A program made the position numbers and the translations under genes. This document shows positions 49,673-64,000 of a stretch of 64,000 nucleotides of DNA, in pieces. The notes below the pieces were generated by a model, which worked only from the letters and a program-made list of their open reading frames with translations, was not told the origin of the DNA and did not search any database. Source of the DNA: Halomonas sp. CUBES01 (lineage in GTDB: Bacteria > Pseudomonadota > Gammaproteobacteria > Pseudomonadales > Halomonadaceae); assembly GCF_020991005.1 (NCBI RefSeq), contig NZ_JAJLLW010000001.1, positions 62,001 to 126,000 on the forward strand, read 5' to 3'. Each line of letters opens with the position of its first letter. Position 1 is the first letter of the stretch.

Positions 49673-51264
49673 GACCCCTCTCCTTTGAAACCGGGAACAA
49701 ATGCCGCCGAATGCCGCCGTGGTCGCGAGGGAGCAACGCTACCCAGAGCTCGTTGAAACGGCATTGCCAGGTAGAGCCCCTGGCTAAAGTGCACGCGCCA
49801 GCGCGCCACCCAGGCTGCCTGGGGAAACACCATGACTACGCCGGCGGCCAGTATCAGGCTTGCCAGCATCAGTGAGCCAAGCAGCCCCGCCGTCAAGGTT
49901 AACGGAGCGTAAGCACTGGGAAGCGCAGGGGCCAGCAAGCTGTGCAGCAAGGCATAAAGCGGCACCAGGGCCAGCGCCATGACGAACAACGCCAGGCGCC
50001 TTGGTTTGGTCATCCCGACCGGCATCCCCAGCAGCGTGCTGCCCACCGCCAAGCTCAGCAGTGCCCCCAATAGCGGGTTGTGACTGATGAGTGAAGGCCA
50101 TGCCACCAGCGCCGCTGCGGCCAGTGCTGCCGCAGGCAGCGCGATGGAAAGACGCTGCCGCAGCGGGGCAAGCGGCAAACGTTCGCAGCGCGCTGCCCTC
50201 ACGGCACGACCAGAGGCCAAGAAGGAGTGTGCCTTGTAGAGGGAGTGTGCGAGCAGGTGGGCCAGCGCCAGGGTGTAAGCCCCCACGCCAATTTCAAACA
50301 GCATAAAGCCCATTTGTGCACAGGTAGACCACGCCAACGCATGCTTCACAGAGGCTTGGGTCAGCATCGTCATCACCGCCACCAGGGCGGTGAAGCCTCC
50401 CACGGTAATTAGCAGGTAGTGCCCCAACGTGAGGCCATCAAACACCGGGAAGAGTCGCAGCCACACGAATCCCCCCAGGTTAATCACCCCGGCATGAAGC
50501 AACGCGGAGACCGGCGTAGGCGCTTCCATCACTTTAATCAACCAGCCGTGCATCGGTACCTGGGCACATTTACACAGCGCCGCGATGGCCAGCGCCACCG
50601 ATGCCGCTTCTACCTGCCAGCCGCCGGAAGTGACAGCCGCAGCGGCGAACAGCTCGGGCAGCTCAAAGGTACCGAAACGCGCGTACAAAAACGCCACCGC
50701 AGCGATTAGCGCGGCATCACCGATGCGGCTGACAACGAACTTCTGCCACGCAGCACGCTGGGCTTCGACACGCTCAGGGTATAGCGTCAGAAGATGATGC
50801 AGCGCGACGCTCACGCCGATCCAGGCAATCAGCATCACGACCAGGTGATGGGTAAAGACCAGCAGCATCACGCTAGCGAACACAACCTGACACCAGGGTA
50901 AGAAACGACGCTCGCCACGGTCACCCTTCAGGTAGCCTTCTGCAAAGTGCAGCAGCACCGTCCCTAACAAGCTGATCAGCATGGCCATCCAAACGGCAAG
51001 GCCATCTGGATAGAGACCCAACGGCCGCGCGGTTTCCGGCAGGCCGGTGGAAACGCCCAGCGTATCCAGCACAAACAGTATGCCGACCGCCAAGCTGGCC
51101 ACCAACGCGCTCGCGGTTAGACCACGGCCGATTTTCCAAGCCCGCTGCAAAGATGCCGGGGTGCTAGCCCGTGCGCTTATACCCGCCATCACCAGCAGCG
51201 ATATTGGAATCAACAACCATAGCGCCAGTAGTAATCGTACGATCACGTCGACAAACGTTGGCAT
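49669..51264 (-). CDS. dabB: DabB, proton-conducting membrane subunit (NuoL/MrpA-like)
   Basis: 531 aa with about thirteen or more helices. The proton-pumping core is clear: VVMLIAWIGVSVALHHLL with a conserved Glu/Lys network, CKCAQVPMHGWLIKVMEAPTPVSAL (the HGWL...EAPTPVSALLHAG signature) and LAWSTCAQMGFMLFE. It lets cation flow drive DabA. Although it resembles complex I NuoL and Mrp antiporters, the neighbour dabA fixes the assignment. First gene of the dab operon. Confidence 0.92.
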   Translation of the reverse strand: MPTFVDVIVRLLLALWLLIPISLLVMAGISARASTPASLQRAWKIGRGLTASALVASLAVGILFVLDTLGVSTGLPETARPLGLYPDGLAVWMAMLISLLGTVLLHFAEGYLKGDRGERRFLPWCQVVFASVMLLVFTHHLVVMLIAWIGVSVALHHLLTLYPERVEAQRAAWQKFVVSRIGDAALIAAVAFLYARFGTFELPELFAAAAVTSGGWQVEAASVALAIAALCKCAQVPMHGWLIKVMEAPTPVSALLHAGVINLGGFVWLRLFPVFDGLTLGHYLLITVGGFTALVAVMTMLTQASVKHALAWSTCAQMGFMLFEIGVGAYTLALAHLLAHSLYKAHSFLASGRAVRAARCERLPLAPLRQRLSIALPAAALAAAALVAWPSLISHNPLLGALLSLAVGSTLLGMPVGMTKPRRLALFVMALALVPLYALLHSLLAPALPSAYAPLTLTAGLLGSLMLASLILAAGVVMVFPQAAWVARWRVHFSQGLYLAMPFQRALGSVAPSRPRRHSAAFVPGFKGEGS

Positions 51265-51342
51265 CGCCTTTCCCCATAAGGTGTATGCGAACGACTATGC
51301 CCCTCTCGTCATCATATAAAAAATAGTTTATTTTTCATAAAA

Positions 51343-51361
51343 CGTTCTTTAAAAAAGAACG
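51343..51361. promoter_or_regulatory. Palindromic operator-like site between dabB and the LysR gene
   Basis: CGTTCTTT-AAA-AAAGAACG, a perfect 8-bp inverted repeat in an A+T-rich gap between divergent starts. Likely binding site of the adjacent LysR-type regulator. Confidence 0.6.
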
Positions 51362-51393
51362 AAAAGCCAAGCCACTGTCGAGGCCGCGATGTC

Positions 51394-52296
51394 ATGAAGC
51401 TCAATTACCACCATCTTTACTATTTTTGGCAAGTGGCCAAATCGGGTCATCTGACCCGCACTGCCGAGTCGCTGCACGTATCGCAGTCGTCACTTTCCCA
51501 GCAAATTCGCCAGTTGGAAGCGCGCTTGGGCCAAGCGTTGTTTATCCGCGAAGGACGCCAGCTCCATCTTTCCGAAGCAGGTAGGCTTGCCTTTGATTAT
51601 GCAGAGGCCATTTTCACCCAGGGTGAAGAGCTTAGCGCGCTGTTCGCTGAAGGCGGACACGCTCATCGAGAAGTGGTGCGAGTGGGAGCGGTAGCGACGC
51701 TCTCGCGTAACTTTCAGGAGGGATTTGTGCGGCCGCTGCTGGGCCGAGATGATCTGGATTTGATATTGCAAAGCGGTGGTATGGATGACCTGCTGCGGCG
51801 GCTTGCTGCTCATAAGCTGGACGTCGTGCTCTCGAACCAGCCCGTGCGTGGCGATAGCGAACACCCCTGGCACTCACAGCGCTTGGCACGCCAATCGGTG
51901 AGCTTGATTGCATCGCCCCATCTGTCGCCGTCACCGGTATTCCCTCATGGGCTGAGCGAGCACGCCCTTATCCTGCCCGGCGTCGAAAACGCCACCCGCC
52001 TCGCCTTCGACCAACTCTGCAGCCACTACCGGCTAATCCCCAATATTGCCGCCGAGGTAGACGACATGGCCATGATGCGCCTGCTGGCCAGGGATACCCA
52101 GCATATTGCCGTGATGCCACCTGTCGTCGTGCGTGACGAACTGCAGCAGGGTACGCTCACCGATTACGGCGCGCTGCCGGGCGTATGGGAAGAGTTTTAT
52201 GCCATCACCATTCAGCGGCGATTTAACTCATCCGTACTACAAGAAATGCTCAATCAGCCTCAAGACTTGCTGTTAGGTCCTGGACTCATGGAATAA
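51394..52296 (+). CDS. NhaR-like LysR-family regulator
   Basis: 300 aa. N-terminal winged helix MKLNYHHLYYFWQVAKSGHL, then SESLHVSQSSLSQQIRQLE-type HTH; the YHHLYYFW start and C-terminal pattern (EEFYAITIQRRF) are those of NhaR, the Na+-responsive activator of nhaA in E. coli, rather than CbbR/CynR types. It is divergent from dabB-dabA with a palindrome between, so it probably controls them and itself. Inducer unknown (Na+, pH or inorganic carbon are candidates). Confidence 0.9.
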   Translation: MKLNYHHLYYFWQVAKSGHLTRTAESLHVSQSSLSQQIRQLEARLGQALFIREGRQLHLSEAGRLAFDYAEAIFTQGEELSALFAEGGHAHREVVRVGAVATLSRNFQEGFVRPLLGRDDLDLILQSGGMDDLLRRLAAHKLDVVLSNQPVRGDSEHPWHSQRLARQSVSLIASPHLSPSPVFPHGLSEHALILPGVENATRLAFDQLCSHYRLIPNIAAEVDDMAMMRLLARDTQHIAVMPPVVVRDELQQGTLTDYGALPGVWEEFYAITIQRRFNSSVLQEMLNQPQDLLLGPGLME

Positions 52297-52507
52297 CCAC
52301 TGCAATCTCTCCGGCGCATCGGCAGCCCGCCGATAATCAACTCAAACGCTATTCCCGGCAGCGACCCCCTGCCCGGAATACCGTCCGTGCTTTTAGCCAT
52401 TAGTCGATGCCCCCGAGCGGGTTGCCGATCTGTGCTAACGCCCTTGCCCTGCGATGCGCATGATGAATGGCACCGCATTCCAACAAGCACTTGTCGAGGG
52501 CCACGAA

Positions 52508-53647
52508 ATGAACAACAACACCAGGATCGATTTCATTTACCTCTCCGAGCAGGACATGATCCGGGCTGGCGTGACCGATATGGCCGCCTGCGTGGACACC
52601 ATGGAAGAGGTCTTCCACCTGCTTCACATCGGCGATTACCGCATGGCCGGGCCCAACAACGACTCCCACGGCGCGATGATCATGTTTCCGGAGGAGTCGC
52701 CCTTTCCCACCATGCCGAAACCGACTGCGGACCGTCGGATGATGGCGATGCCCGCTTACCTGGGCGGCAGCTTCTGCACCTCCGGCGTGAAGTGGTATGG
52801 CTCCAACATCGCCAACCGGGAAAAGGATCTGCCCCGCTCCATCCTGATGTTCACGCTGACCGACCCGGACACCGCCGCACCGTTGGCGTACATGTCGGCC
52901 AATCTGCTGTCGGCCTACCGCACCGGCGCCGTACCGGGGGTCGGCGCTCGCCATCTGGCGCGCAAGGATTCCCGCGTTATCGGCCTGCTGGGTCCGGGGG
53001 TGATGGGCCGCACGAGCGTGGCCGCGTTCATGGCGGTCTGCCCGGAGATCGACACCATCAAGATCAAGGGGCGCAGCGAGAAGAACATCAACGGCTTCAT
53101 CGACTGGGTGAAGGCGCACTATCCGCAGGTCACCAACATTGAGGTAGTCGACTCCGAGGAAGCCGTGGTACGCGATTCGGACATCGTGACCTACTGCGCC
53201 TCCGGCGAAGTCGGTAATCCCGACCTCTACCCGATGGTCAAGCGCGAGTGGGTCAAGCCCGGCGCCTTTCTGGCAATGCCGGCGCCGTGCAACTTCGATG
53301 CCGGCATGGAAGCGCCGGACATCCGCAAGGTGCTCGATGACACCGGCCTGTACGAAGCCTGGTACGAAGAAGTGCCCAAGCCTGCCCATAGCGTGATTCC
53401 GCTGGTCGGCGTCAAGTTCATGGACATGCTCCACGCCGGCAAGCTCGAGGCCAAGGCGCTGGAGGACCTTGGCGCCATCGTCTCCGGCGACAGTCCGGGC
53501 CGAAAAAGCGACGACGAGATCATCATGATGTCGGTCGGCGGCATGCCGGTGGAAGACGTTGCCTGGGCCACAGTCGTCTACCGCAAGGCCGTAGAGCAGG
53601 GCATCGGCGTCAAGCTGAACCTGTGGGATCAGCCCGCGCTGAAATAA
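52508..53647 (+). CDS. Ornithine cyclodeaminase/mu-crystallin family protein
   Basis: 379 aa from ATG 52508, after GAGGGCC; a GTG-type extension upstream is less likely. The NAD(P)-binding Rossmann motif is VIGLLGPGVMGRTSV near residue 160, preceded by ANLLSAYRTGAVPGVGARHL with the conserved Arg-Thr-Gly-Ala of the family. It is longer than ordinary ornithine cyclodeaminase. Members reduce or oxidise imines. It heads a cluster with a Rid protein and an FAD oxidase, so it may act on an imine from amine oxidation. I associate such trios with arylethylamine breakdown but cannot verify that here. Its first codons carry a Crc/Hfq-like A-rich tract. Confidence 0.86.
   Translation: MNNNTRIDFIYLSEQDMIRAGVTDMAACVDTMEEVFHLLHIGDYRMAGPNNDSHGAMIMFPEESPFPTMPKPTADRRMMAMPAYLGGSFCTSGVKWYGSNIANREKDLPRSILMFTLTDPDTAAPLAYMSANLLSAYRTGAVPGVGARHLARKDSRVIGLLGPGVMGRTSVAAFMAVCPEIDTIKIKGRSEKNINGFIDWVKAHYPQVTNIEVVDSEEAVVRDSDIVTYCASGEVGNPDLYPMVKREWVKPGAFLAMPAPCNFDAGMEAPDIRKVLDDTGLYEAWYEEVPKPAHSVIPLVGVKFMDMLHAGKLEAKALEDLGAIVSGDSPGRKSDDEIIMMSVGGMPVEDVAWATVVYRKAVEQGIGVKLNLWDQPALK
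52511..52520 (+). promoter_or_regulatory. Candidate Hfq/Crc catabolite site (CA motif)
   Basis: AACAACAACA directly after the ATG of the ornithine cyclodeaminase-family gene; it matches the Pseudomonas CA motif AANAANAA exactly. Inferred from sequence and the presence of crc. Confidence 0.5.
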
Positions 53648-53728
53648 CGCACCGACAAGTTCCAGCGCGGATGCCTGGCTCGGGCCAGCGCCCGCGCTGC
53701 CCATCGACTGCATAGCGAGACTTCCATA

Positions 53729-54154
53729 ATGAGCACGATCACCAAGGTCAAAACCGGCTCCAAATTCGAGGAACACGCCAGCTATTCGCGCGTGGTGGCC
53801 GTCGATAACTGGATCCTTGTCTCCAACACCGCCGGGCGCAACCCGGTGACCAAGGAGATTCCAGACGACGTCAGCGAACAGCTGACACAGGTTTTTGCCA
53901 ACATCGAAGGCGCTCTCGGCGCGGTCGAAAGCGACCTGTCCGACATTGTATCGGCGAGGATTTTCATCCAGAACCCGGCCGATACCGAAACGGTCATGAC
54001 CCAGTTCGGCGAGACCATGCGCGGCGTCGACCCGGTCATTACCGTGACCTGCCCGCCGCTCGGCGCCGAGGTCTACAAGGTCGAGCTGGAAGTGACCGCC
54101 TACCGTGGCGCCGGCAGCGCCGAGACCATCCGGATCGACACCTCCGCTCAGTGA
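53729..54154 (+). CDS. Rid-family (YjgF/UK114) protein, probable imine deaminase
   Basis: 141 aa. The RidA fold is recognisable (SRVVAVDNWILVSNTAG, then IEGALGAVESDLSDIVSARIF and VYKVELEVTAY). The Arg that binds substrate carboxylate in archetypal RidA, just before the VEIE strand, is Lys here, placing it in another Rid subgroup that may act on imines without a carboxylate. It would hydrolyse imines to carbonyl and ammonia. Between the ornithine cyclodeaminase-family gene and the FAD oxidase in one apparent operon. Confidence 0.88.
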   Translation: MSTITKVKTGSKFEEHASYSRVVAVDNWILVSNTAGRNPVTKEIPDDVSEQLTQVFANIEGALGAVESDLSDIVSARIFIQNPADTETVMTQFGETMRGVDPVITVTCPPLGAEVYKVELEVTAYRGAGSAETIRIDTSAQ

Positions 54155-54244
54155 GGCGTCGTTCGGCTTCTAACCTGATCGGGCGGGTGTGACCGGCCAT
54201 ACCGGCTGGCGCCCGTTCGATCACCGACCGATCAGGACGCGTTC

Positions 54245-55534
54245 ATGGCACCGACTATCGCCCCCGTCGAGACCTCTCACGACTTTCCCGCTTCGACCAC
54301 CGTAGTCATCATCGGTGGCGGCATTATCGGCCTGACCGCCGCCCTGACGCTCGCCGAGCGTGGCGTGCCCGTCACGGTACTGGAAAAGGGCCGTATTGCC
54401 GGTGAGCAGTCCTCCCGCAACCTGGGCTGGATCCGCAAGACCAGCCGCCACGGCGAGGACGTGCCGCTGGCGCTGGCCTCCGACCGGCTATGGGCCACCA
54501 TGGCCGAGCGCACCGGCAGCGACGTGGGGTATCGCCAGTCGGGCATCATGTTTTTGTCGCGCACGCCGGATCAGCTCGCCGTCCACGAAGCCTGGCTCGA
54601 GTCGGTTTCGGACCTGTCGCTGGATTCACGAATGCTGAGTGCGCGGGAGATCGATGCCAAGGTACCGGGCGGTCGCGGCGATTGGGCCGGGGCCATCCAT
54701 ACCCCCTCCGACGGCTACGCCGAGCCCACACTTGCCGCAAGCGCCATTGCCCGGGCGGCCATCGCCCGTGGCGCGGTGATCGTCGAGCACTGCGCGGTGC
54801 GCACCATTACTCGCGCCAGCGGCCGGGTGAGCGGGGTGGTGACCGAGCGCGGCGAGATCCGGTGCGACCAGGTACTGCTGGCCGGCGGCATGGGGTCGCG
54901 GCGCTTTCTGGGCAATATCGGCATCTCCCTGCCGACGCTGCCGCTGATCCTGTCGGTGTTCAGAACCGCCGCCATGGAGGGCCCCACCGACTGTGCCGTG
55001 GGCGGGCCGGATTTCTCCTTTCGCAAGCACAAGGATGGCGGCTTCATCGTGACCCAGCGCGGTGCGCTCGATGCGCCGCTGACGCTGGATCATCTGCTGG
55101 TCGGCGCCAAGTACCTGAGCGCACTACGCGCCCAGCGGGGGCTTTTGCGGATGTCGCTGGGCAAGCATTTCTGGCGGGAGCTCGCGCTGCCGCGGCGCTG
55201 GAAAACCGGCCCCTCGCCCTTCGAGCGCGAGCGCACCATCGACCCGCCGATCAACCAGGGGCTGAACAACGAGGCCCACCGCCACCTGTCGGCGGCCTGG
55301 CCGGTGTTCGAAAAGGCGACCATCGAAGAAGCCTGGGCGGGCATGATCGACATCACGCCGGACTCCAACCCGGTCATCGATGCGGTACCCGGCGTGCCCG
55401 GGCTGACCCTGGCCTCCGGTTTCTCGGGGCATGGCTTTGGCACTTCGCCAGCCGCCGGCCAGCTCGCCGCCGATCTGATCATGGACAAGACGCCGATCAT
55501 CGACCCAAAACCCTACCGCTTCGGACGGTTCTAG
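54245..55534 (+). CDS. FAD-dependent amine/amino-acid oxidoreductase (DAO family)
   Basis: 429 aa. FAD-binding VVIIGGGIIGLTAALTLAERG at residues 20-40 (shown in part: GGGIIG), ribose Glu in VLEKGRI, a DAO middle, and C-terminal GLTLASGFSGHGFGTSPAAGQ for the flavin. Members oxidise amino acids or amines to imines. Its relatives include DadA and sarcosine/glycine oxidases; substrate not decidable alone. No signal peptide. Its stop overlaps that of the convergent AraC gene by 3 bases (TCTAGA). Confidence 0.88.
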   Translation: MAPTIAPVETSHDFPASTTVVIIGGGIIGLTAALTLAERGVPVTVLEKGRIAGEQSSRNLGWIRKTSRHGEDVPLALASDRLWATMAERTGSDVGYRQSGIMFLSRTPDQLAVHEAWLESVSDLSLDSRMLSAREIDAKVPGGRGDWAGAIHTPSDGYAEPTLAASAIARAAIARGAVIVEHCAVRTITRASGRVSGVVTERGEIRCDQVLLAGGMGSRRFLGNIGISLPTLPLILSVFRTAAMEGPTDCAVGGPDFSFRKHKDGGFIVTQRGALDAPLTLDHLLVGAKYLSALRAQRGLLRMSLGKHFWRELALPRRWKTGPSPFERERTIDPPINQGLNNEAHRHLSAAWPVFEKATIEEAWAGMIDITPDSNPVIDAVPGVPGLTLASGFSGHGFGTSPAAGQLAADLIMDKTPIIDPKPYRFGRF

Positions 55535-56475
55535 ACCTCTGACGCCGCGTCCTTTTGGTCGGTGTCGAGCGCCCGCGCCCGCGCCCGAGTGGCTGAGGGC
55601 AGCTCCTGAAACAGGCGGCGGTATTCGCGGCAAAAGTAGCTTTGGTGGAAAAAGCCCTGGCTCGCGGCAGCGTCGGCCAGGCGCTGGCTGGGGTCGTGTA
55701 ACAGGCTGCGACGCACGGCATTGAGACGAAGGGCACGCAGGTAATGCACGGGGGATTGTCCGACCTCGGACTGAAAACTGTATTGCAGCGTGCGTCTGGA
55801 AATCCTCAACTGATGGCACAGGGCCATCAGCGAAGGCGGTTCGTCCGGGCATTCGCGTACCCGTGCCTGGCAGCGGTCGACAATGTAGCGCCGAGTCCGG
55901 TAATTGGTGGTATCAGGCTCGTTCGAGAGAACGCAGTCGCCGAGCAGCCATTCGATGCTGTCGTCGAGCTGGCGCACCAGCGACTCCTGCAGCGCCGGGG
56001 TCATCAATTCATGGCGGGGGCGCTGGCGCAGGTAATCGGTCATCAACTGCCACTGCTCGCGTACCTGGTTCAACAGCACCACCGGCACGTCGAGCCGTCG
56101 CAGGCGATGTTCATCGCGGCCAAGCCAGGCATGACGGCAGCGGTTGATGGAGACCACCAGCAGATCGTAGTTCGAGGGCGCCACGCTCCAGAACTGATCG
56201 CAGCGCGGCAGGACGGTCACGGTATCGGCGCCGTACAGATCCTCGCCTGGCCAGCGAATGGGCGTGACCAGGTGCCACTGCGAGTCGGGAAAGTGCATCT
56301 GCTGAAAGAGCCCCAGATTGGCGCTTTCACGAAACAGCCGTATTTCTTGGCTCGATATGTCCACGATCTCGCCCGAGAAAACACCGGCTTCGATCTGGCT
56401 GGATTCCTGCTGCCAGCCCTCCAGACGCTGGGCATGCTCCGCCGCATCAAGACAGTGGTGCAGTGCAATGGTCAT
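55531..56475 (-). CDS. AraC-family regulator (EutR-like)
   Basis: 314 aa from ATG 56475, after GGGAGGC; longer in-frame readings lack support. N-terminal effector domain of the EutR type (IRLFRESANLGLFQQMHFPDSQ), C-terminal two HTH units: LMALCHQLRISRRTLQYSFQ and VHYLRALRLNAVRRSL. EutR activates ethanolamine use; here it is next to an amine island, so it may sense an amine or its product. Divergent from the FeaR-like gene. Confidence 0.9.
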   Translation of the reverse strand: MTIALHHCLDAAEHAQRLEGWQQESSQIEAGVFSGEIVDISSQEIRLFRESANLGLFQQMHFPDSQWHLVTPIRWPGEDLYGADTVTVLPRCDQFWSVAPSNYDLLVVSINRCRHAWLGRDEHRLRRLDVPVVLLNQVREQWQLMTDYLRQRPRHELMTPALQESLVRQLDDSIEWLLGDCVLSNEPDTTNYRTRRYIVDRCQARVRECPDEPPSLMALCHQLRISRRTLQYSFQSEVGQSPVHYLRALRLNAVRRSLLHDPSQRLADAAASQGFFHQSYFCREYRRLFQELPSATRARARALDTDQKDAASEV

Positions 56476-56655
56476 GAAAAGCCTCCCGCCCGTGGCGCTT
56501 GTGGCACGCAAATTGCTGTTTGCAAATGACCCGTGCAGTGCGAGCGCACGGTGCAACCAGGTAACCTGAAACTTGACCAATGAAGGGTGGTGCCAAGGCG
56601 CTTTTTTATCTAGAGTGAGTATAACCATTAAAATGTTAATAAAAATGGTGACCCA

Positions 56656-57618
56656 ATGCTACACACGACTTCAACACCGACTCCTGCAACCTCTGCAACA
56701 TCCATGCCGTTCGATGCCTGGCTGGGCGCGCTGCGCCAGACCTGCGGTCACTTCGACTGCACCCCTAGAGATCGGCGCAGTTTTCAGGGCAGCGTTTCGA
56801 CGCGTACCAACGGTGGCATCGACATTGCCAACATCGTCACGAACGCCGAGAAGGTGACCAGCAGCCGTGCCCAGCGTCGCGACGAAGATCGTTACTGTTT
56901 TCTGGTCGTGCAGAAGCAGGGGCGCGCCACACTGGTGCAAAACGATACGGCGATTGTGCTGCGTCCGGGCGAGATGGCGCTGATGGATTCCATCGAGGCC
57001 TGTGACGTTATCCCCCACGGACTGATCGAGCACGATTCGCTTCACCTGTCGCGCCGTGAAGTCGCCCAGCGCTTCGGCGAGACGTCGATCCCCTTCATGA
57101 AGATCACGGCAGACTGCGCCAGCAGCCAGATTCTGCAACTGGTGGTTAATCGTATGGTGACCGAGCCGCTGGCATCGGCCGAACAAGAAGAGGAGGGGGT
57201 TTCGGACTCGCTGGTGGCGCTGCTGCCGACGATCTACCGACATCAGGCGCTGTCGCCGTCGTTCATGGAGCAGGCCGATGGCACGCTGTTCAATTGCGTG
57301 CAGCAGTTTATCGACCAGCACCTGCATGAGGACGAACTCGGGCCGGAACGCCTGGCGTTGGCCTTCCACATGTCGGTTCGCCAGCTTTATCGGCTGTTCG
57401 AACAGCACGGCGAAACGGTGTGCCGCTACGTTCAGCGTCGCCGCCTGGCGCGCTGTGCGGAGGAACTGGCAAGCCCGATGCTGATCAAGCGCTCGATCAC
57501 TCAGATTGCCTACAAATGGGGCTTTACCGATTCGGCGCACTTCAGCCGTGCTTTCAAGCGCGAGTTTGCAAGCTCGCCCCGTGAATACCGTCGCGCGTAC
57601 CTGGCGCGGGCCGCATGA
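56656..57618 (+). CDS. AraC-family regulator (FeaR-like)
   Basis: 320 aa. C-terminal HTH with LALAFHMSVRQLYRLFEQHG and IAYKWGFTDSAHFSRAFKREF; the pattern WGFTDSAHFS...SPREYRR and the N-terminal domain match E. coli FeaR, which activates tynA and feaB for phenylethylamine and tyramine. It lies between the EutR-like gene and a FeaB-like dehydrogenase, which strongly supports this role. AATAAAAA in its leader (56638-56645) also fits a Crc-type motif. Confidence 0.9.
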   Translation: MLHTTSTPTPATSATSMPFDAWLGALRQTCGHFDCTPRDRRSFQGSVSTRTNGGIDIANIVTNAEKVTSSRAQRRDEDRYCFLVVQKQGRATLVQNDTAIVLRPGEMALMDSIEACDVIPHGLIEHDSLHLSRREVAQRFGETSIPFMKITADCASSQILQLVVNRMVTEPLASAEQEEEGVSDSLVALLPTIYRHQALSPSFMEQADGTLFNCVQQFIDQHLHEDELGPERLALAFHMSVRQLYRLFEQHGETVCRYVQRRRLARCAEELASPMLIKRSITQIAYKWGFTDSAHFSRAFKREFASSPREYRRAYLARAA

Positions 57619-57714
57619 TGCGCGGCGTGCCGACCCGCGGGCGTACTGCACACCCGCTGATCGGCACCGGCCATCTTGCCAATCACACGGCGGCCGGCCG
57701 CTGTACGTTTCTAT

Positions 57715-59199
57715 CTAGTAGGCGATGCAGACCGACTTGAGCTCGGTGTAGGCGTTGACCGCTTCGGGGCCGAATTCCTTGCCCAGCCCGGACATCTTGA
57801 GCCCGCCGAACGGCATGGCCGGATCCAGGGTGACATGGGTGTTGACCCAGACGGTGCCGGCCTCGATGCGTGGCGTCAACGCCATGGCTTTGGAAAGGCT
57901 CTCGGTCCAGAGGCTAGCCGCCAGCCCCAGCTCGCTGTCGTTGACCATCCGCAGCGCCTGCTCGTCATCGTCGAAGGGAATCACCGTGAGTACCGGACCA
58001 AACACCTCTTCCCGGGCGATTTCCATATCGTGATCGGCGCCGCTGATCACCGTGGGCGAGACATAGAAGCCCTCGGATGGCACCTTGTTGCCTACATGGA
58101 CGTTGGCGCCCTGATCGCGGGCACGGTCGATGTAGCCCTGCACGCTCGCCTGCTGACGCTTCGAGACCAGCGGATTGACCTGTGCCTGCGGATCCATCCC
58201 GGGCCCTGCCTGCATGCTATCGACGGCCTGGGCCAGTCGCTCACAGAAGGTGTCGTGGAGGCTACGATGCACGTAGAACCGCGAGGCGGCCGCGCAGACC
58301 TGTCCCTGGTTGAACAATCCACCCAGCAGCGCGCCATTGACGGCCTTGTCGATATCGGCGTCCTCCAGCACCAGCATCGGATTCTTGCCGCCCAGCTCCA
58401 GCGAGAAGTGCGCCATGTGCTCGACGGCGGCATGGCCGACCTGCTTGCCGATCGCGGTGCTGCCGGTGAAGGTGACCTTGCCGACGTCGGGATGCTCGGC
58501 AATACGCGTCCCGACTGTGGCGCCAGAGCCCAGCACTACGTTGAATACGCCTTTTGGCACCCCTGCCTCGACCGCCAGTTCAGCCAGACGCAACACGCTC
58601 AACGGCGTTTCCGAGGCGGGCTTGAGCACCACCGAACACCCCGCCGCCAGCGCCGGCACCACCTTCCAGAGCGCGATCATCATCGGAAAGTTCCACGGCA
58701 CGATAGCTGCCACCACGCCGATGGGCTGGCGAAGGGTGTAGGTATTGAACTTAGCGCCCTCGGGCATGCCGATGGACACCTCACGGGTGCTGCCCTCAAG
58801 CTTGGTGGTCCAGCCGGCCATGTAGCGAATGAAGTCGACCGAGAAGCCGACATCGACGCCGCGGGCGATATTGATCGACTTGCCCTGGTTGAGGGTCTCG
58901 ATCTGGGCAAGTTCCTCGCCGTGCTCCTCCAGAAGGTCCGCAAAACGTAGCAGAATCCGCTCGCGGGCGGCGGGTGTCATCCCCGACCATCGGCCGTCCT
59001 CGACGCTTTGCCGTGTCAGTGCCACTGCCCGGTCTGCCAGTGATGTATCGCCCTCGGCCACCCGGGTCAGCGGCTGGCCGGTGGAGGGGTCGAGCACGTC
59101 GCGGGCCTGGCCGTCGGCCAAAAAGGCACCGTCGATGAACGAGCCCGTCGCTCGCGTGAAGAAATCCTGTACGACCTGTGATGCGGTGTGCTGATTCAT
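57715..59199 (-). CDS. Aldehyde dehydrogenase, FeaB (phenylacetaldehyde dehydrogenase)-like
   Basis: 494 aa from ATG 59199, after CAGGAGATCGCTC. Catalytic Cys302 in NQGQVCAAAS, general-base Glu268 in LELGGKNP, Asn170 in IVPWNFP, NAD motif FTGSTAIGKQ. Resembles E. coli FeaB along its length (ERILLRFADLLEEHGEELAQ; TVWVNTHVTLDPAMPFGG). It oxidises aldehydes, probably arylacetaldehydes, to acids. Convergent with the FeaR-like gene, followed by a porin gene upstream on the same strand. Confidence 0.93.
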   Translation of the reverse strand: MNQHTASQVVQDFFTRATGSFIDGAFLADGQARDVLDPSTGQPLTRVAEGDTSLADRAVALTRQSVEDGRWSGMTPAARERILLRFADLLEEHGEELAQIETLNQGKSINIARGVDVGFSVDFIRYMAGWTTKLEGSTREVSIGMPEGAKFNTYTLRQPIGVVAAIVPWNFPMMIALWKVVPALAAGCSVVLKPASETPLSVLRLAELAVEAGVPKGVFNVVLGSGATVGTRIAEHPDVGKVTFTGSTAIGKQVGHAAVEHMAHFSLELGGKNPMLVLEDADIDKAVNGALLGGLFNQGQVCAAASRFYVHRSLHDTFCERLAQAVDSMQAGPGMDPQAQVNPLVSKRQQASVQGYIDRARDQGANVHVGNKVPSEGFYVSPTVISGADHDMEIAREEVFGPVLTVIPFDDDEQALRMVNDSELGLAASLWTESLSKAMALTPRIEAGTVWVNTHVTLDPAMPFGGLKMSGLGKEFGPEAVNAYTELKSVCIAY

Positions 59200-59349
59200 G
59201 AGCGATCTCCTGCGCATGCAAGGCTTCAAATGAGGCGACATCGGCATGTCGCGCGATGTCGCAAAAGGGTTAGCTGAGCGTCAGGCTAATGCGCCATTCC
59301 CCCGACAACTTGTCCGTGTCTGCCGGTTGCATGACGCTATCTGCCAAGT

Positions 59350-60693
59350 TTAGAAATTAAATCCAACCAGCAACTGGCTGTAATAGTTGGTATCGCTGTC
59401 GCCCAGTTGGCTTCCGCCGTCGTTCGCGGAAACGTCGGGGCTGTAGCGACCCAGCAGCGGCATGACCCACCAGCGCTCGCTCGGCGACCACACGGCATAC
59501 AGATCGATCTCGTTGCCGCTGAGATTCGGTCCCGCCTCCGTGGAGAGGGTATCGAAGTCGTAGAGCATCGCTCCGAGGCTCACGCTCGCCGACGGCGTCA
59601 GCGTCAGGTTGATCTGCTGCACCCGGGCATTGGTATTGAAGGGGCCGGCGTAGTTGGCGGCGACCTCACCCTGGAACCAGGTACCGAGCGCGCGTCCGTT
59701 ACCGTAGAACAGCGGATCGTACTGCTCGGAAAAGCGGCTGAAGCGGTAGCTAACGGCAGGCGAGCCGGGCAGCTTGTCGAAGGTCCAGCCCGCCTCCAGA
59801 TACCAGGCGTTCTCGTGGTCGTCGCTGCCGTTTTCCTGCCAGGCGTACTGGCCGGCGAGAAACAGGTTCTCGACGCCGGCGTTGCCCTGGCCGCGCAGGC
59901 TGTAGACCCGGGTATCCTCGCGCTCGGGGTAGAGAAAGGCGTAGTCGTCATCGATGTCGAGGACGTCGAGGTAGGTCGCTCCCAGTGTTCCCGCGTCGGA
60001 GACGTGCTCCAGCGTGGCGACGCTGAGTTCCGGCTCGGCCTGGGCGGGGTTGCCCGACGTCAGCCACATCAGGTCACCCCGCCACCCCTGATCGCCGCCG
60101 AGGCGCAGCACCGCGGTATTCTCGAAGGACTGGCGCGCTGCCAGATAGTAAGCGCCGCCACGGTCGAGGTCGCCGCCCAGCACCCCCTCGCCGAAATTGA
60201 GCGAATCCCCCGCGATCAGGAAGCCGTCGCCGACCTGGACATGCTGACGTCCCACGGACAGGTCGACGCCATCCTGGCCCAGCGCCGGGAACAACCCGCC
60301 GGACTTCCAGCCGGCGTAGAGATTCTCGAGATGGGTGCGCCGCTCATCGCCGGTGGTGAAGCCGGCGGCGTCGCCCTGGCCGAACGTTCCTCCCGAGACC
60401 CCGGCCACGTTGGCATAGAGCGAACTGCTGTCACCGCCCAGCGCGTGCGTGACATCGAGCCCGTACTTGACGAACCCCTCCTGCCAGTCTCGGCTTCCGG
60501 CCTCGGCGGTTTCGGATTGGGCGTAGCCCTTCTGGCTGTGAAAGGCCCCGGCCACGCCCGTGACGTTCAGGTTGATCTGGGTCTGTGCCGTGTCATGGAT
60601 CTCGACAGCCGAGGCATTCCCGCACATTGAAAGCGTGATGATCGAGCCAACGGCAAGTCTTGTCAGTATGGGGCAGTAGCGTGAGGTGATCAT
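59350..60693 (-). CDS. Outer-membrane porin (probable substrate channel)
   Basis: 447 aa with signal peptide (CGNASA/VEI) and beta-barrel alternation throughout, ending in the aromatic VGFNF typical of outer-membrane proteins. Acidic (DDDYAFLYPEREDTRV). Similar to OprD/alginate-export style channels only in general; family not named with confidence. Same strand as the aldehyde dehydrogenase and TRAP genes, suggesting uptake of the cluster's substrate. Confidence 0.84.
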   Translation of the reverse strand: MITSRYCPILTRLAVGSIITLSMCGNASAVEIHDTAQTQINLNVTGVAGAFHSQKGYAQSETAEAGSRDWQEGFVKYGLDVTHALGGDSSSLYANVAGVSGGTFGQGDAAGFTTGDERRTHLENLYAGWKSGGLFPALGQDGVDLSVGRQHVQVGDGFLIAGDSLNFGEGVLGGDLDRGGAYYLAARQSFENTAVLRLGGDQGWRGDLMWLTSGNPAQAEPELSVATLEHVSDAGTLGATYLDVLDIDDDYAFLYPEREDTRVYSLRGQGNAGVENLFLAGQYAWQENGSDDHENAWYLEAGWTFDKLPGSPAVSYRFSRFSEQYDPLFYGNGRALGTWFQGEVAANYAGPFNTNARVQQINLTLTPSASVSLGAMLYDFDTLSTEAGPNLSGNEIDLYAVWSPSERWWVMPLLGRYSPDVSANDGGSQLGDSDTNYYSQLLVGFNF

Positions 60694-60845: not shown

Positions 60846-62168
60846 CTAATCGAGCCACACCAGCGAAAGCGCCGGCACCAACACCACGATGGCGATACGC
60901 ACCATGTCCGCGCCGATGAACGGCAGGATGCCGCGGCTGACGGTGGCAAGCGAGGTGCCGTGGCTGTACTTCTGCACGATGAACAGGTTCATGCCCATGG
61001 GGGGCGTGATCAGGCCGATTTCCACCACCATCAGCGCGACGATGCCGAACCAGATCGACTTGGCGGTGTCGTCGAGGCCGAACAGGTCGAGCTCGAGAAT
61101 GATCGGATAGAAGATCGGAATGGTGAGCAGAATCATCGACAGCGAATCCATCACACAGCCCAGCAGCAGATAGATCAGCAGGATGATCAGCAGCACCGTC
61201 AGCGGCGCCAGGCCGCTGCCCATGATCCACTCCGCCAGCGCCGTGGGCAGTTGGCCGAGCGCCAGGCCGCTGTTCAGCAGGTCGGCGCCGACCACCACCA
61301 GGTAGATCATGGCGGTCGCCTCCGCGGTGCCCGCCAGACTGCGGTAGACGCCCTGCCAGCGCATGCCGCCGCGCCAGACGGCATAGAGACCGCAGGCAGC
61401 GGCGCCGATCGATGCGGCCTCGGTGAGGTTGGCCCAGCCGCCGTAGAGCCCGTAGATGACCACGGCGAAGATCACCAGTATCGGCGCGATATCGCCCAGG
61501 CTTGCCAGCCGCTCGCCCCAGCCGTAGCGTGGCGCCCGCTCGACGTCGCGCATTGTCCGCGTCGCCACGATGCGGATCACCACCAGATAGCCCGCCACTG
61601 CCAGCAATCCCGGCAGGATCGCCGCCATGAAGAGCGCGGCGATCGACTCTTGGGTCAGCACGGCGTAGACGATCAGCGGTACCGAGGGCGGGATCAGAAT
61701 CCCCAGGGTCCCTGCCGCGGCGATGGTGCCCGTGGCCAGTCGCTTGCCGTAGTGGTAACGCGCCAGTTCCGGCAGGGCCACCTGACTCATGGTGGTCGCC
61801 GTGGCCAGCGAGGAGCCACAGATGGCGCCGAAACCGGCGCAGGCCCCCGCCGCCGACATCGCCAACCCGCCCCGCCAGTGGCCAATCCAACTGGCACTGG
61901 CGCGGAACAGCGCCTTCGATAGCCCGCCGTGGATCGCGAATTGCCCCATCAGCACGAACATGGGAATGACCGCCAGGTCGTAGCTCGAGAATCGGGCATA
62001 AACGAGATTGTTGAGGGTGAACAGCAACGCCCGGGTATCGCCGTCATTGACCAGCCAGTAGCAGAGAGCCCCCGCCAGCAACATGGCGACCCCCACATGC
62101 CAGCGACAGCCCAGCATCACCAGCAGGACACCGAGCGCGATGGCGCCCACTTCCAGGCCACCGATCAT
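60846..62168 (-). CDS. dctM: TRAP transporter large permease (DctM)
   Basis: 440 aa, about twelve helices. DctM marks: SYDLAVIPMFVLMGQFA, ACAGFGAICGSSLATATTMSQVALPEL, GTLGILIPPSVPLIVYAVLT and TPPMGMNLFIVQ. It is the transport subunit driven by Na+ (usual in halophiles). The start overlaps the small permease stop by 4 bases. About 150 bases follow it before the porin. Confidence 0.95.
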   Translation of the reverse strand: MIGGLEVGAIALGVLLVMLGCRWHVGVAMLLAGALCYWLVNDGDTRALLFTLNNLVYARFSSYDLAVIPMFVLMGQFAIHGGLSKALFRASASWIGHWRGGLAMSAAGACAGFGAICGSSLATATTMSQVALPELARYHYGKRLATGTIAAAGTLGILIPPSVPLIVYAVLTQESIAALFMAAILPGLLAVAGYLVVIRIVATRTMRDVERAPRYGWGERLASLGDIAPILVIFAVVIYGLYGGWANLTEAASIGAAACGLYAVWRGGMRWQGVYRSLAGTAEATAMIYLVVVGADLLNSGLALGQLPTALAEWIMGSGLAPLTVLLIILLIYLLLGCVMDSLSMILLTIPIFYPIILELDLFGLDDTAKSIWFGIVALMVVEIGLITPPMGMNLFIVQKYSHGTSLATVSRGILPFIGADMVRIAIVVLVPALSLVWLD

Positions 62169-62671
62169 GGACGCTCTCCTCCCGTTGCCGCTTCCCTGGC
62201 GTCCCCGGTCAGTTGGAGAACGCTCTTATGGAGCGCGCAGACCCCGAGCAGAGCGAGGCCCGCCAGCATGGCGACCTGGGGGATCCATTGCGGAATGCCT
62301 AGTTGCACGCTCTGGGCGCCGTAGTCGAGGCTGTCGACGGCCAATAGCGCCGTTCGCCATACCAGCAACGCGCTGACCAGCGCCAGCATAAGGTGCGAGA
62401 TCGCCAGCAGGGCGCGATTGAGCCTGGCCGGGAAGAGCGTGGCAACGATATCGACCCGGATGTGTCGGTCGTTGACCTCGCACAGCGGCAGGAAACAGGC
62501 CACGGTGACCGCGACCAGCATCTGCAGCAGCTCGATGTCCCCCGTAATGGGCGTGGAGAAGAGCCGGCGGCCGAGCATCGAGACCAGCGACATGCCGATC
62601 GCCGTCATCAGCAGCACACCACCGACCATGGCCAGCGCCATTGCCGAGCGTTTCAATATGACACCCATCAT
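62165..62671 (-). CDS. dctQ: TRAP transporter small permease (DctQ)
   Basis: 168 aa from ATG 62671, 7 bases after GGAGG. Four hydrophobic helices with the DctQ pattern (GRRLFSTPITGDIELLQMLV; CEVNDRHIRVDIVATLFP). Partners DctM in the membrane. Confidence 0.93.
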   Translation of the reverse strand: MMGVILKRSAMALAMVGGVLLMTAIGMSLVSMLGRRLFSTPITGDIELLQMLVAVTVACFLPLCEVNDRHIRVDIVATLFPARLNRALLAISHLMLALVSALLVWRTALLAVDSLDYGAQSVQLGIPQWIPQVAMLAGLALLGVCALHKSVLQLTGDAREAATGGERP

Positions 62672-62722
62672 AAAGGCCTCCGTGCGCCTTCGGCACGCCA
62701 TTCGGTCAATCCGGTCATCGCG

Positions 62723-63799
62723 TCACTCCGCGCGTCGCAGGTCAGGGGCATGCTCGGCGACGACCGACGCGAGTTGCTCGACCAGTGCACCACGGTCAGT
62801 ATCGTTGTCGCCGGCGGCGATCCAGTCCTCGACGATGCCACGGGTGGCGTCGCGCATATCGTCATAGGCGGCGTCATCAAGCGTTATCATCGTCTGGTCG
62901 GGGTCGCCTTCCAGGCGTGTCTTGACCTTGTCGATCGCTTCGTCCCAGGCGCGGCCGAAGCGAACCGACAGCGTCTCTCCGCTCAGCGAATCGAGTACCT
63001 GACGCGCCTTCTCGGGTAGCCGGTCATAGCTTTGCTGGTTCATCAGCAGCGCCAGCACCGTCACCGTCGGCGTCGCCTGATCGGCCGCCGTCTCGATGTG
63101 GTAGCGGGTAACCTCGTCGAGTTTCGTCGGTGGCACGACTTCCCAGCCAGCCGATGCGCCATCGATAACGCCCTTGGCCAGTGTGTCGGCGATCTGGGCC
63201 GGTGGCATGCTCACCGCCGAGGCGCCGAGCATGTCGATCACGTTCGAGGCCATGCGCGTGGGCGCGCGCAGTCGCAGCCCCTGCATATCGGCGCGGTCGT
63301 GGACCGGGGTTTCCCGGGTATGGAAGACGCTGCCGCCATCGCTATGTACGGCGAGCACCTTGTAATCGGCAAAGTCCGCCGCGGCGGGCCCCTGGGTGAA
63401 TGCCCAGGCGATACGGCTGGCCTCGACGCCACCGGCAGGCAGCATGAAGGGCAGTTCCAGCGCCTCGCTGCGCGGGAAGCGACCTGCTGAATAACCCAGT
63501 GCGGTCCAGGCGACATCGACGACCCCGTTGCGCACCATGTCGGCGAGCTGCGCCGGGGTGCCGCCCAGTTGCATGGACGGGTATATCTGGCAGCGCAGCT
63601 CTCCCTCGGACTGGGTTTCGAGATCCTCGCACCAGGGCTCGATGACGTGCTGCTGGGCGTTGGACATCGCCGGCAGGAAATGCGCAATGCGCAGGGTGGT
63701 TGCCGCCGACGCCGCCTGGCTGGTCAAGCTGAGTACCAGACAGAGCCCCCACACCCGTTTCAAGCAGTGCATCATGGTTGCCGCGTTTTTCATTGTCAT
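62723..63799 (-). CDS. dctP: TRAP transporter substrate-binding protein (DctP)
   Basis: 358 aa from ATG 63799, after AGGAGGCAATCCA; longer in-frame reading is not supported. Signal peptide ends TSQAASA/ATT. Typical DctP core: IAHFLPAMSNAQQHVIEPW, LGGTPAQLADMVRNGVVDVAW, and QGLRLRAPTRMASNVIDMLG with the conserved Arg that binds a carboxylate. So the ligand probably has a carboxyl group. It is the first TRAP gene; dctQ follows after 51 bases. Confidence 0.93.
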   Translation of the reverse strand: MTMKNAATMMHCLKRVWGLCLVLSLTSQAASAATTLRIAHFLPAMSNAQQHVIEPWCEDLETQSEGELRCQIYPSMQLGGTPAQLADMVRNGVVDVAWTALGYSAGRFPRSEALELPFMLPAGGVEASRIAWAFTQGPAAADFADYKVLAVHSDGGSVFHTRETPVHDRADMQGLRLRAPTRMASNVIDMLGASAVSMPPAQIADTLAKGVIDGASAGWEVVPPTKLDEVTRYHIETAADQATPTVTVLALLMNQQSYDRLPEKARQVLDSLSGETLSVRFGRAWDEAIDKVKTRLEGDPDQTMITLDDAAYDDMRDATRGIVEDWIAAGDNDTDRGALVEQLASVVAEHAPDLRRAE

Positions 63800-63863
63800 T
63801 GGATTGCCTCCTAACTCCGTTGATAGGACCTCTGGGCGGGTGCCAGTCGCGACACCGGCGTCC

Positions 63864-64000
63864 TCAGGCCGGCAGCTTTGCCTCGCTCGCCACCAGGGCC
63901 AGCACGCCCTCTGCCCAGTCCAGCGCCACGTCCGAGGCGGCAAGCGCGCCGCTGGCATCGTGGCGGCCGTACTCCCCGATTTGCGTTGCACCGCAGGCTA
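63864..64000 (-). CDS. C-terminal fragment of an unidentified protein
   Basis: An open frame enters from the right edge and ends with TGA at 63864-63866. The last 45 residues include ACGATQIGEYGRHDASGALA and WAEGVLALVASEAKLPA, with coding-like composition. It is 64 bases upstream of dctP on the same strand. I do not recognise the family. Confidence 0.5.
   Translation of the reverse strand, partial: ACGATQIGEYGRHDASGALAASDVALDWAEGVLALVASEAKLPA

Follow-up and report, generated by a model that had tools for sequence, protein, structure and literature searches.

The window analysed here is a 64,000-nucleotide stretch, bases 62001–126000 of contig C10 in the 3.6 Mb genome (G000; 99.7% complete) of a Halomonas-type bacterium. 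Toward its right end it carries six genes that a sequence-only reading had picked out as a possible catabolic module, and all six are present as long open frames where that reading placed them (Table 1): three in tandem for a protein of the ornithine cyclodeaminase (OCD) fold, a Rid-family protein and a flavin adenine dinucleotide (FAD) protein, which we call the triad, followed by two divergent AraC-family regulator genes and an aldehyde dehydrogenase gene. We consider this group likely to be a copper-free Tyn-type module for arylethylamine catabolism, a judgement that leaves aside the chemistry of the first step. The proposed amine-to-acid route working without a copper amine oxidase is supported by the match of the OCD protein to the NCBIfam family NF004848, ‘tyramine oxidase subunit B’ (700.9 bits against a cut-off of 362), by the FeaR and FeaB-like matches of one regulator and the dehydrogenase, and by the lack of any copper amine oxidase (PF01179) match in the whole genome; the absence of TynA, which the earlier reading had remarked on, is borne out genome-wide.

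Two gene starts required a choice. The OCD frame is open from 52454, and its start is probably at 52508, because alignments to the family model and to most relatives begin at about residue 19; OCD residues are numbered below from 52508. Where the minus-strand AraC gene begins is uncertain, since most close relatives align over 300–316 of its 365 residues and two (L029 and L032) over at least 360. The probable intergenic region between the two AraC genes has conserved stretches in most of 10 relatives aligned, its boundaries depending on that inferred start. The minus-strand AraC gene runs towards the FAD gene, and the two share four bases (55531–55534) at their stop codons.

Table 1. Features of the amine locus and of the same contig beyond the window; positions are those of the window unless marked C10 or L026
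Feature	Position	Strand or orientation	Basis
18-base element TTGCCGATCTGTGCTAAC upstream of OCD gene	52422..52439	+	Alignment of 11 upstream regions
OCD-fold protein, ‘tyramine oxidase subunit B’ family	52508..53647; frame open from 52454	+	NF004848; PF02423 239 bits
Rid-family protein, not classical RidA type	53729..54154	+	PF01042 66 bits
FAD protein, DAO superfamily, L-amino acid deaminase type	54245..55534	+	PF01266 238 bits
AraC-family regulator, distantly EutR-like	55531..56628; start maybe near 56475	-	HTH_18 76 bits
Probable divergent intergenic region between two AraC genes	56476..56655	no strand	Holds if minus-strand start is about 56475
AraC-family regulator of FeaR family	56656..57618	+	HTH_18 78 bits; FeaR equivalog
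Arylacetaldehyde dehydrogenase, FeaB/StyD-like	57715..59247	-	PF00171 560 bits; FeaB identity
Probable outer-membrane porin-like protein, tentatively in cluster	59350..60693	-	Read from sequence
TRAP transporter genes DctM, DctQ, DctP, tentatively in cluster	60846..63991	-	PF06808, PF04290, PF03480
Phenol-2-monooxygenase-family flavoprotein	C10:129154-131028 (L026:3154-5028)	divergent beside hpa genes	1009 bits, cut-off 560
HpaE	past window, C10		761 bits, cut-off 638
HpaD	past window, C10		426 bits, cut-off 321
HpaG-like protein	past window, C10		173 bits, below cut-off 276
HpaH	past window, C10		349 bits, slightly under cut-off 351.5
HpcH/HpaI aldolase domain	past window, C10
Succinate-semialdehyde dehydrogenase	past window, C10

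Conservation of the triad

When 84,980 species genomes were scanned for the OCD protein, 418 stretches proved to encode a relative, and the best 80 of these were examined. The Rid gene followed the OCD gene in 79 of the 80, being missing from an Afifella locus (L061), and the FAD gene was likewise found in 79, the exception (L039) being a locus where the contig stops close to the gene. The OCD, Rid, FAD order was kept at 8 of 8 further genome loci. Because the first three genes keep their order in nearly every close relative examined, we regard their grouping as more than chance. Matches to the OCD protein also occurred in 34 plasmid records, 23 at 60–80% identity and 11 below 60%; the triad was present at all eight loci examined from the former set (69% identity or more), and neither a Rid nor a FAD match lay in the flanks of the four examined from the latter. 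In all eight triad-bearing plasmid records the OCD protein is annotated as ‘tyramine oxidase subunit B’, with Rid and FAD genes next to it. The sequence-only reading had treated the OCD partner as an unexplained extra component, a description that falls away because a curated family of that name already covers the protein and public records use the name in the same gene company. The protein exceeds the NF004848 cut-off in 8 of 82 genomes of the genus and, in a sample taken across the class, in 2 of 369, our own included.

The remaining genes of the locus accompany the triad in a minority of cases. At 88 relative loci (among which are at least three duplicate genomes), the fetched flanks held, at 40% identity or more, a match to the dehydrogenase in 27, to the FeaR-family regulator in 17 and to the EutR-like regulator in 13. 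The full arrangement recurs in Halomonadaceae and near kin (e.g. L029–L035 and L040; L028, L037 and L044 differ). The conserved clustering in relatives that the earlier reading had proposed as a check thus extends to the triad, with regulators and dehydrogenase joining it only in some of them. On an Aminobacter plasmid (L111), bhcABCD, the genes of the beta-hydroxyaspartate cycle, begin 3.2 kb past the triad FAD gene, with an aldehyde dehydrogenase gene between.

Regulators and aldehyde dehydrogenase

The plus-strand AraC protein passed the FeaR equivalog model (310.4 bits, cut-off 199) at 28% identity to Escherichia coli FeaR, whereas its minus-strand neighbour scored 116 bits against the EutR equivalog cut-off of 319, so that of the ‘FeaR/EutR-like’ pair first proposed the FeaR assignment stands and the EutR one reduces to a distant resemblance. 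The dehydrogenase shares 50% identity with E. coli FeaB over 488 residues and did not reach the cut-off of the model for StyD, the Pseudomonas-type phenylacetaldehyde dehydrogenase (615 bits, cut-off 850); we therefore call it FeaB-like only. A FeaR-family regulator and a FeaB-like dehydrogenase are what the locus has in common with the E. coli TynA-FeaB-FeaR system and its Paa pathway (NC_000913.3), from which it departs in that the genome has no match to copper amine oxidase or to PaaA.

These proteins also bear on a possible role of ethanolamine, or of some other small amine, as substrate. No named model scores higher than EutR for the minus-strand AraC protein, and a permease downstream weakly matches an ethanolamine permease model (87 bits), but both scores lie far under their cut-offs (319 and 381.75), the FeaR cut-off is passed, and the dehydrogenase is of the phenylacetaldehyde type. 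We consider such a substrate very improbable, and ethanolamine was rejected as the theme of the cluster on the same scores.

Proposed downstream pathway and substrate

Homoprotocatechuate genes (hpaE, hpaD, hpaG-like, hpaH and hpaI) lie 3–12 kb past the window, starting about 14 kb beyond the FAD gene; together with a phenol-hydroxylase-like gene they all fall within 12.1 kb of the window end on the same contig. One frame in this region (L026:10171-11262) had no family match and may be false. Genome-wide there was no match to the phenylacetyl-CoA epoxidase PaaA, to HpaB (PF03241) or to HmgA, the last of which led us to reject a homogentisate route. The phenol-2-monooxygenase-like flavoprotein is a likely replacement for the 4-hydroxyphenylacetate 3-hydroxylase, a single-component enzyme standing where HpaBC would be expected. 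Since the homoprotocatechuate genes adjoin and PaaA finds no match, tyramine (or dopamine) fits better than phenylethylamine; of the two substrates that the sequence-only reading had offered, tyramine is favoured, and phenylethylamine is disfavoured as the main one.

The pathway that we propose would begin with the triad converting tyramine (or dopamine) to the arylacetaldehyde and freeing its nitrogen, with the flavin electrons probably passing to the membrane chain. The dehydrogenase would then form 4-hydroxyphenylacetate (or homoprotocatechuate), the phenol-hydroxylase-like enzyme would stand in for HpaBC, and HpaD, E, G, H and I would carry the ring into central metabolism. Parts of this arrangement are found elsewhere: hpa-like genes lie near the triad in three Marinomonas loci (L058, L080 and L101) and in a gammaproteobacterial metagenome-assembled genome (L098), and a phenol-hydroxylase-like gene in L034, L085 and L098. 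Among nine triad genomes checked, HpaD was over its cut-off in four (G000, G014, G027 and G066) and PaaA was present in four (G010, G027, G030 and G066); in G027, hpaD is about 600 kb from the triad.

Several observations weigh against so specific an assignment. Most loci outside Halomonadaceae and their near kin have no close FeaR or dehydrogenase gene within 10 kb flanks. Three of the nine genomes (G031, G076 and the other-genus G226) have none of HpaD, PaaA or HmgA over cut-off. On two Sphingobium plasmids (L112 and L134) the triad sits, with an aldehyde dehydrogenase gene, between the nicotine genes ndpC and ndpB, where it may handle an amine freed in nicotine breakdown. The tyramine label on NF004848, for its part, probably rests on a published paper. 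Because of those three genomes, and of the nicotine and beta-hydroxyaspartate neighbourhoods elsewhere, the substrate may be broader or lineage-dependent, the triad serving several primary amines or nitrogen supply alone.

Residues kept by the triad proteins

The best solved relatives of the FAD protein are L-amino acid deaminases (LAADs) of Proteus (5fjm at 321 bits, 5hxw at 291), a sarcosine oxidase trailing well behind at 162 bits. In one LAAD study (PMC5651824), Arg315/316 binds the substrate carboxylate, a hydrophobic insertion (Val321-Met375) touches the membrane, and LAADs are described as working without H2O2 production, one passage adding that O2 can be used, less efficiently. By profile alignment, R272 of the FAD protein is the counterpart of pvLAAD Arg315 (chain index 298 being converted to residue 315 on the assumption of a 12-residue tag); it is Arg in 83 of 83 sequences, and the seven named positions of the hydrophobic insertion are hydrophobic in 80 to 83 of them. 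Many sequences used for this and for the OCD mapping, both made from profile alignments, are closely related, so these counts and the OCD counts below are not independent. LAAD is described as carrying an N-terminal twin-arginine translocation (Tat)/transmembrane peptide, whereas the present protein begins about 20 residues before its FAD motif, and none was seen by eye in its first 30 residues. With R272 and the hydrophobic insertion both kept, the FAD protein probably works as a dehydrogenase associated with the membrane, its pocket being of the amino-acid type. The ‘flavin oxidase’ of the sequence-only reading is weakened to that extent: a flavoprotein it is, nearest to enzymes reported not to make H2O2, and the carboxylate arginine is kept.

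The Rid protein falls short of the RidA model TIGR00004 (42 bits, cut-off 106), and the position of the substrate-binding arginine, which we take to be R105 of E. coli RidA, holds Arg in none of 84 aligned sequences. Classical RidA chemistry should for this reason not be assumed, and the suggestion that the Rid protein hydrolyses the imine loses some of its force.

The OCD protein is not an ornithine cyclodeaminase proper by the NF005762 model (51 bits, cut-off 350). It shares its fold family with the solved proteins compared, namely SbnB (4m54; the nearest), alanine dehydrogenase (AlaDH; 1omo) and 6t3e. All 85 of the aligned sequences share R45, K95, R138, G162, G164 and R189, while the position of G167 holds either G or A. 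K95 aligns with AlaDH K65, a residue that presumably has a role in that enzyme. AlaDH D219, which we take to be the catalytic Asp of the OCD family, aligns with a variable position (260), and D264 is Asp in 84 of 85. The second Rossmann strand ends in Gly/Ala-Arg, the Arg being R189, where SbnB, AlaDH and 6t3e have Asp followed by a neutral or aliphatic residue; since the solved relatives have Asp at the aligned Gly position, a general rule makes NADP(H) the likelier cofactor.

These features can be compared with four distant OCD relatives (34–44% identity; one alignment took in three members of the far clade) that have no Rid or FAD neighbours. All four have Asp at the Gly position and lack Arg at 189, and where R45 would align they show Leu or a gap, so that R45 and the Gly-Arg/R189 motif seem, in this small sample, to track the triad. 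Three plasmid proteins annotated ‘tyramine oxidase subunit B’ at 43–44% identity, from Agrobacterium, Paraburkholderia and Rhizobium (L129, L130 and L131), have no Rid or FAD neighbour in their flanks and depart from the triad proteins at R45 and R189; to that clade the name has probably been over-propagated.

Two accounts of the first step

How the triad might make an aldehyde can be told in two ways, which we hold to be about equally likely, neither with much confidence and with the remainder left open. Our slight and tentative preference is for a relay through an N-alkyl amino acid. The OCD protein, with NADPH, would couple the amine to a 2-oxo acid; the FAD protein, its substrate anchored through the carboxylate arginine, would oxidise the resulting N-alkyl amino acid on the alkyl side; and Rid or water would hydrolyse the imine to aldehyde and amino acid. 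Such a relay makes sense because an NADPH-type imine reductase beside a carboxylate-expecting flavoprotein is an odd pair for free tyramine. It is consistent with the conservation of R272 in the FAD protein and of K95 and R189 in the OCD protein, and with SbnB as the nearest solved OCD relative. SbnB acts on an N-substituted glutamate, and sarcosine oxidase oxidises the alkyl side of its substrate. CRYM, another OCD-fold enzyme, is reported in the title of a cited reference to couple alkylamines with 2-oxo acids.

The second account is close to that of the sequence-only reading and to the ‘subunit B’ name: the FAD protein would oxidise the free amine, the OCD protein would be a structural or stabilising second subunit, and the Rid protein would hydrolyse the imine. 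The NCBI family name fits it, as does the Afifella locus, where the OCD and FAD genes are still adjacent though the Rid gene is missing, and a Rid protein without the carboxylate arginine suits a carboxylate-free imine. It leaves two things without a purpose, namely the retention of K95, R138, G162, G164 and R189, superfluous in a subunit whose role is purely structural, and that of a carboxylate-binding arginine, of no use to a free amine. Against the relay stand points of another kind: NADPH would be spent; SbnB works in the oxidative direction; we know of no N-alkyl amino acid here; and the residue mapping is a profile alignment with no structure behind it. For CRYM, the citing study gives no or weak imine reduction on its test amines and oxo compounds where shown.

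The same arginine would also suit a triad that acts on imported amino-acid-like or N-substituted (opine-like) amino acids, the tyramine name being over-propagated. An LAAD-type FAD protein, OCD relatives that to judge from family and structure names mostly act on amino or imino acids, and mixed neighbourhoods (in Sphingobium, for instance, nicotine genes, and in Aminobacter those of the beta-hydroxyaspartate cycle) are all compatible with this. At the present locus, the FeaR regulator, FeaB-like dehydrogenase and hpa genes indicate arylacetaldehyde and arylacetate instead, and we judge it unlikely.

Upstream DNA and flanking genes

Alignment of 11 regions upstream of the OCD gene revealed an 18-base element that is exact in seven (the window among them), has one mismatch in three and is missing from one (L040). 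It is a possible operator or promoter element; its low chance count is no independent test, since the element was chosen from the same alignment. A 16-base inverted repeat at 52346–52384 was set aside, having no conservation across the same regions. Nothing rose above chance in scans for promoter-like sites (0 against a mean of 1.4 in shuffles) or terminator-like sites (6 against 4.9).

Beyond the dehydrogenase gene, the porin-like gene, whose product matched nothing in Pfam or NCBIfam at E 0.001, recurs at 40% identity or more in 25 of the 88 relative loci, often adjoining the dehydrogenase gene. The TRAP transporter genes (PF06808 275 bits, PF04290 83 bits, PF03480 158 bits) follow it, dctM recurring at that identity in nine of the 88. 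On the other side of the locus, window positions 47294–52296 encode a 792-residue protein that matched no family at E 1e-30, a protein of the NADH-quinone oxidoreductase subunit L type, and an NhaR-like LysR regulator (151 bits, cut-off 219). This gene group resembles what we take to be the DabA/DabB inorganic-carbon system.

Known systems and significance

Pseudomonas putida U reportedly has a Tyn-Hpa (3,4-dihydroxyphenylacetate) catabolon, said to have been described by Arcos et al. in 2010, in which a tyramine/dopamine module is coupled to the homoprotocatechuate pathway; the HpaBC hydroxylase is presumably part of it. The genome studied here likewise has the homoprotocatechuate ring-cleavage genes (HpaD 426 bits, HpaE 761 bits). 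It differs in having, beside the hpa genes, the phenol-2-monooxygenase-like flavoprotein in place of any HpaB match, and in its EutR-like regulator and TRAP transporter genes. The triad of P. putida NBRC 14671 (L072) likewise comes with a FeaR regulator (397 bits) and a StyD-like dehydrogenase upstream. The names tynA and tynB are given to tyramine oxidase genes of Pectobacterium (Alcorniella) cacticida in PMC10850344. Among the matches listed in a literature search (titles and abstract starts, with subscription journals mostly outside it), there was no paper on the chemistry of the OCD/Rid/FAD triad. The module is a further case of a known, named amine-degrading system, with local differences in its hydroxylase, extra regulator and TRAP transporter.

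The triad is patchy yet spread across gamma- and alphaproteobacteria and plasmids. Throughout the close relatives compared, the supposed amine-oxidase ‘subunit’ keeps the residues of an enzyme, and its FAD partner keeps a carboxylate arginine needless for a simple amine. Settling the chemistry of the triad would test the annotation of the whole set of relatives, and the relay, if true, would be a widespread amine route unlike the copper, quinone and monoamine oxidase-type oxidases and gamma-glutamylation.

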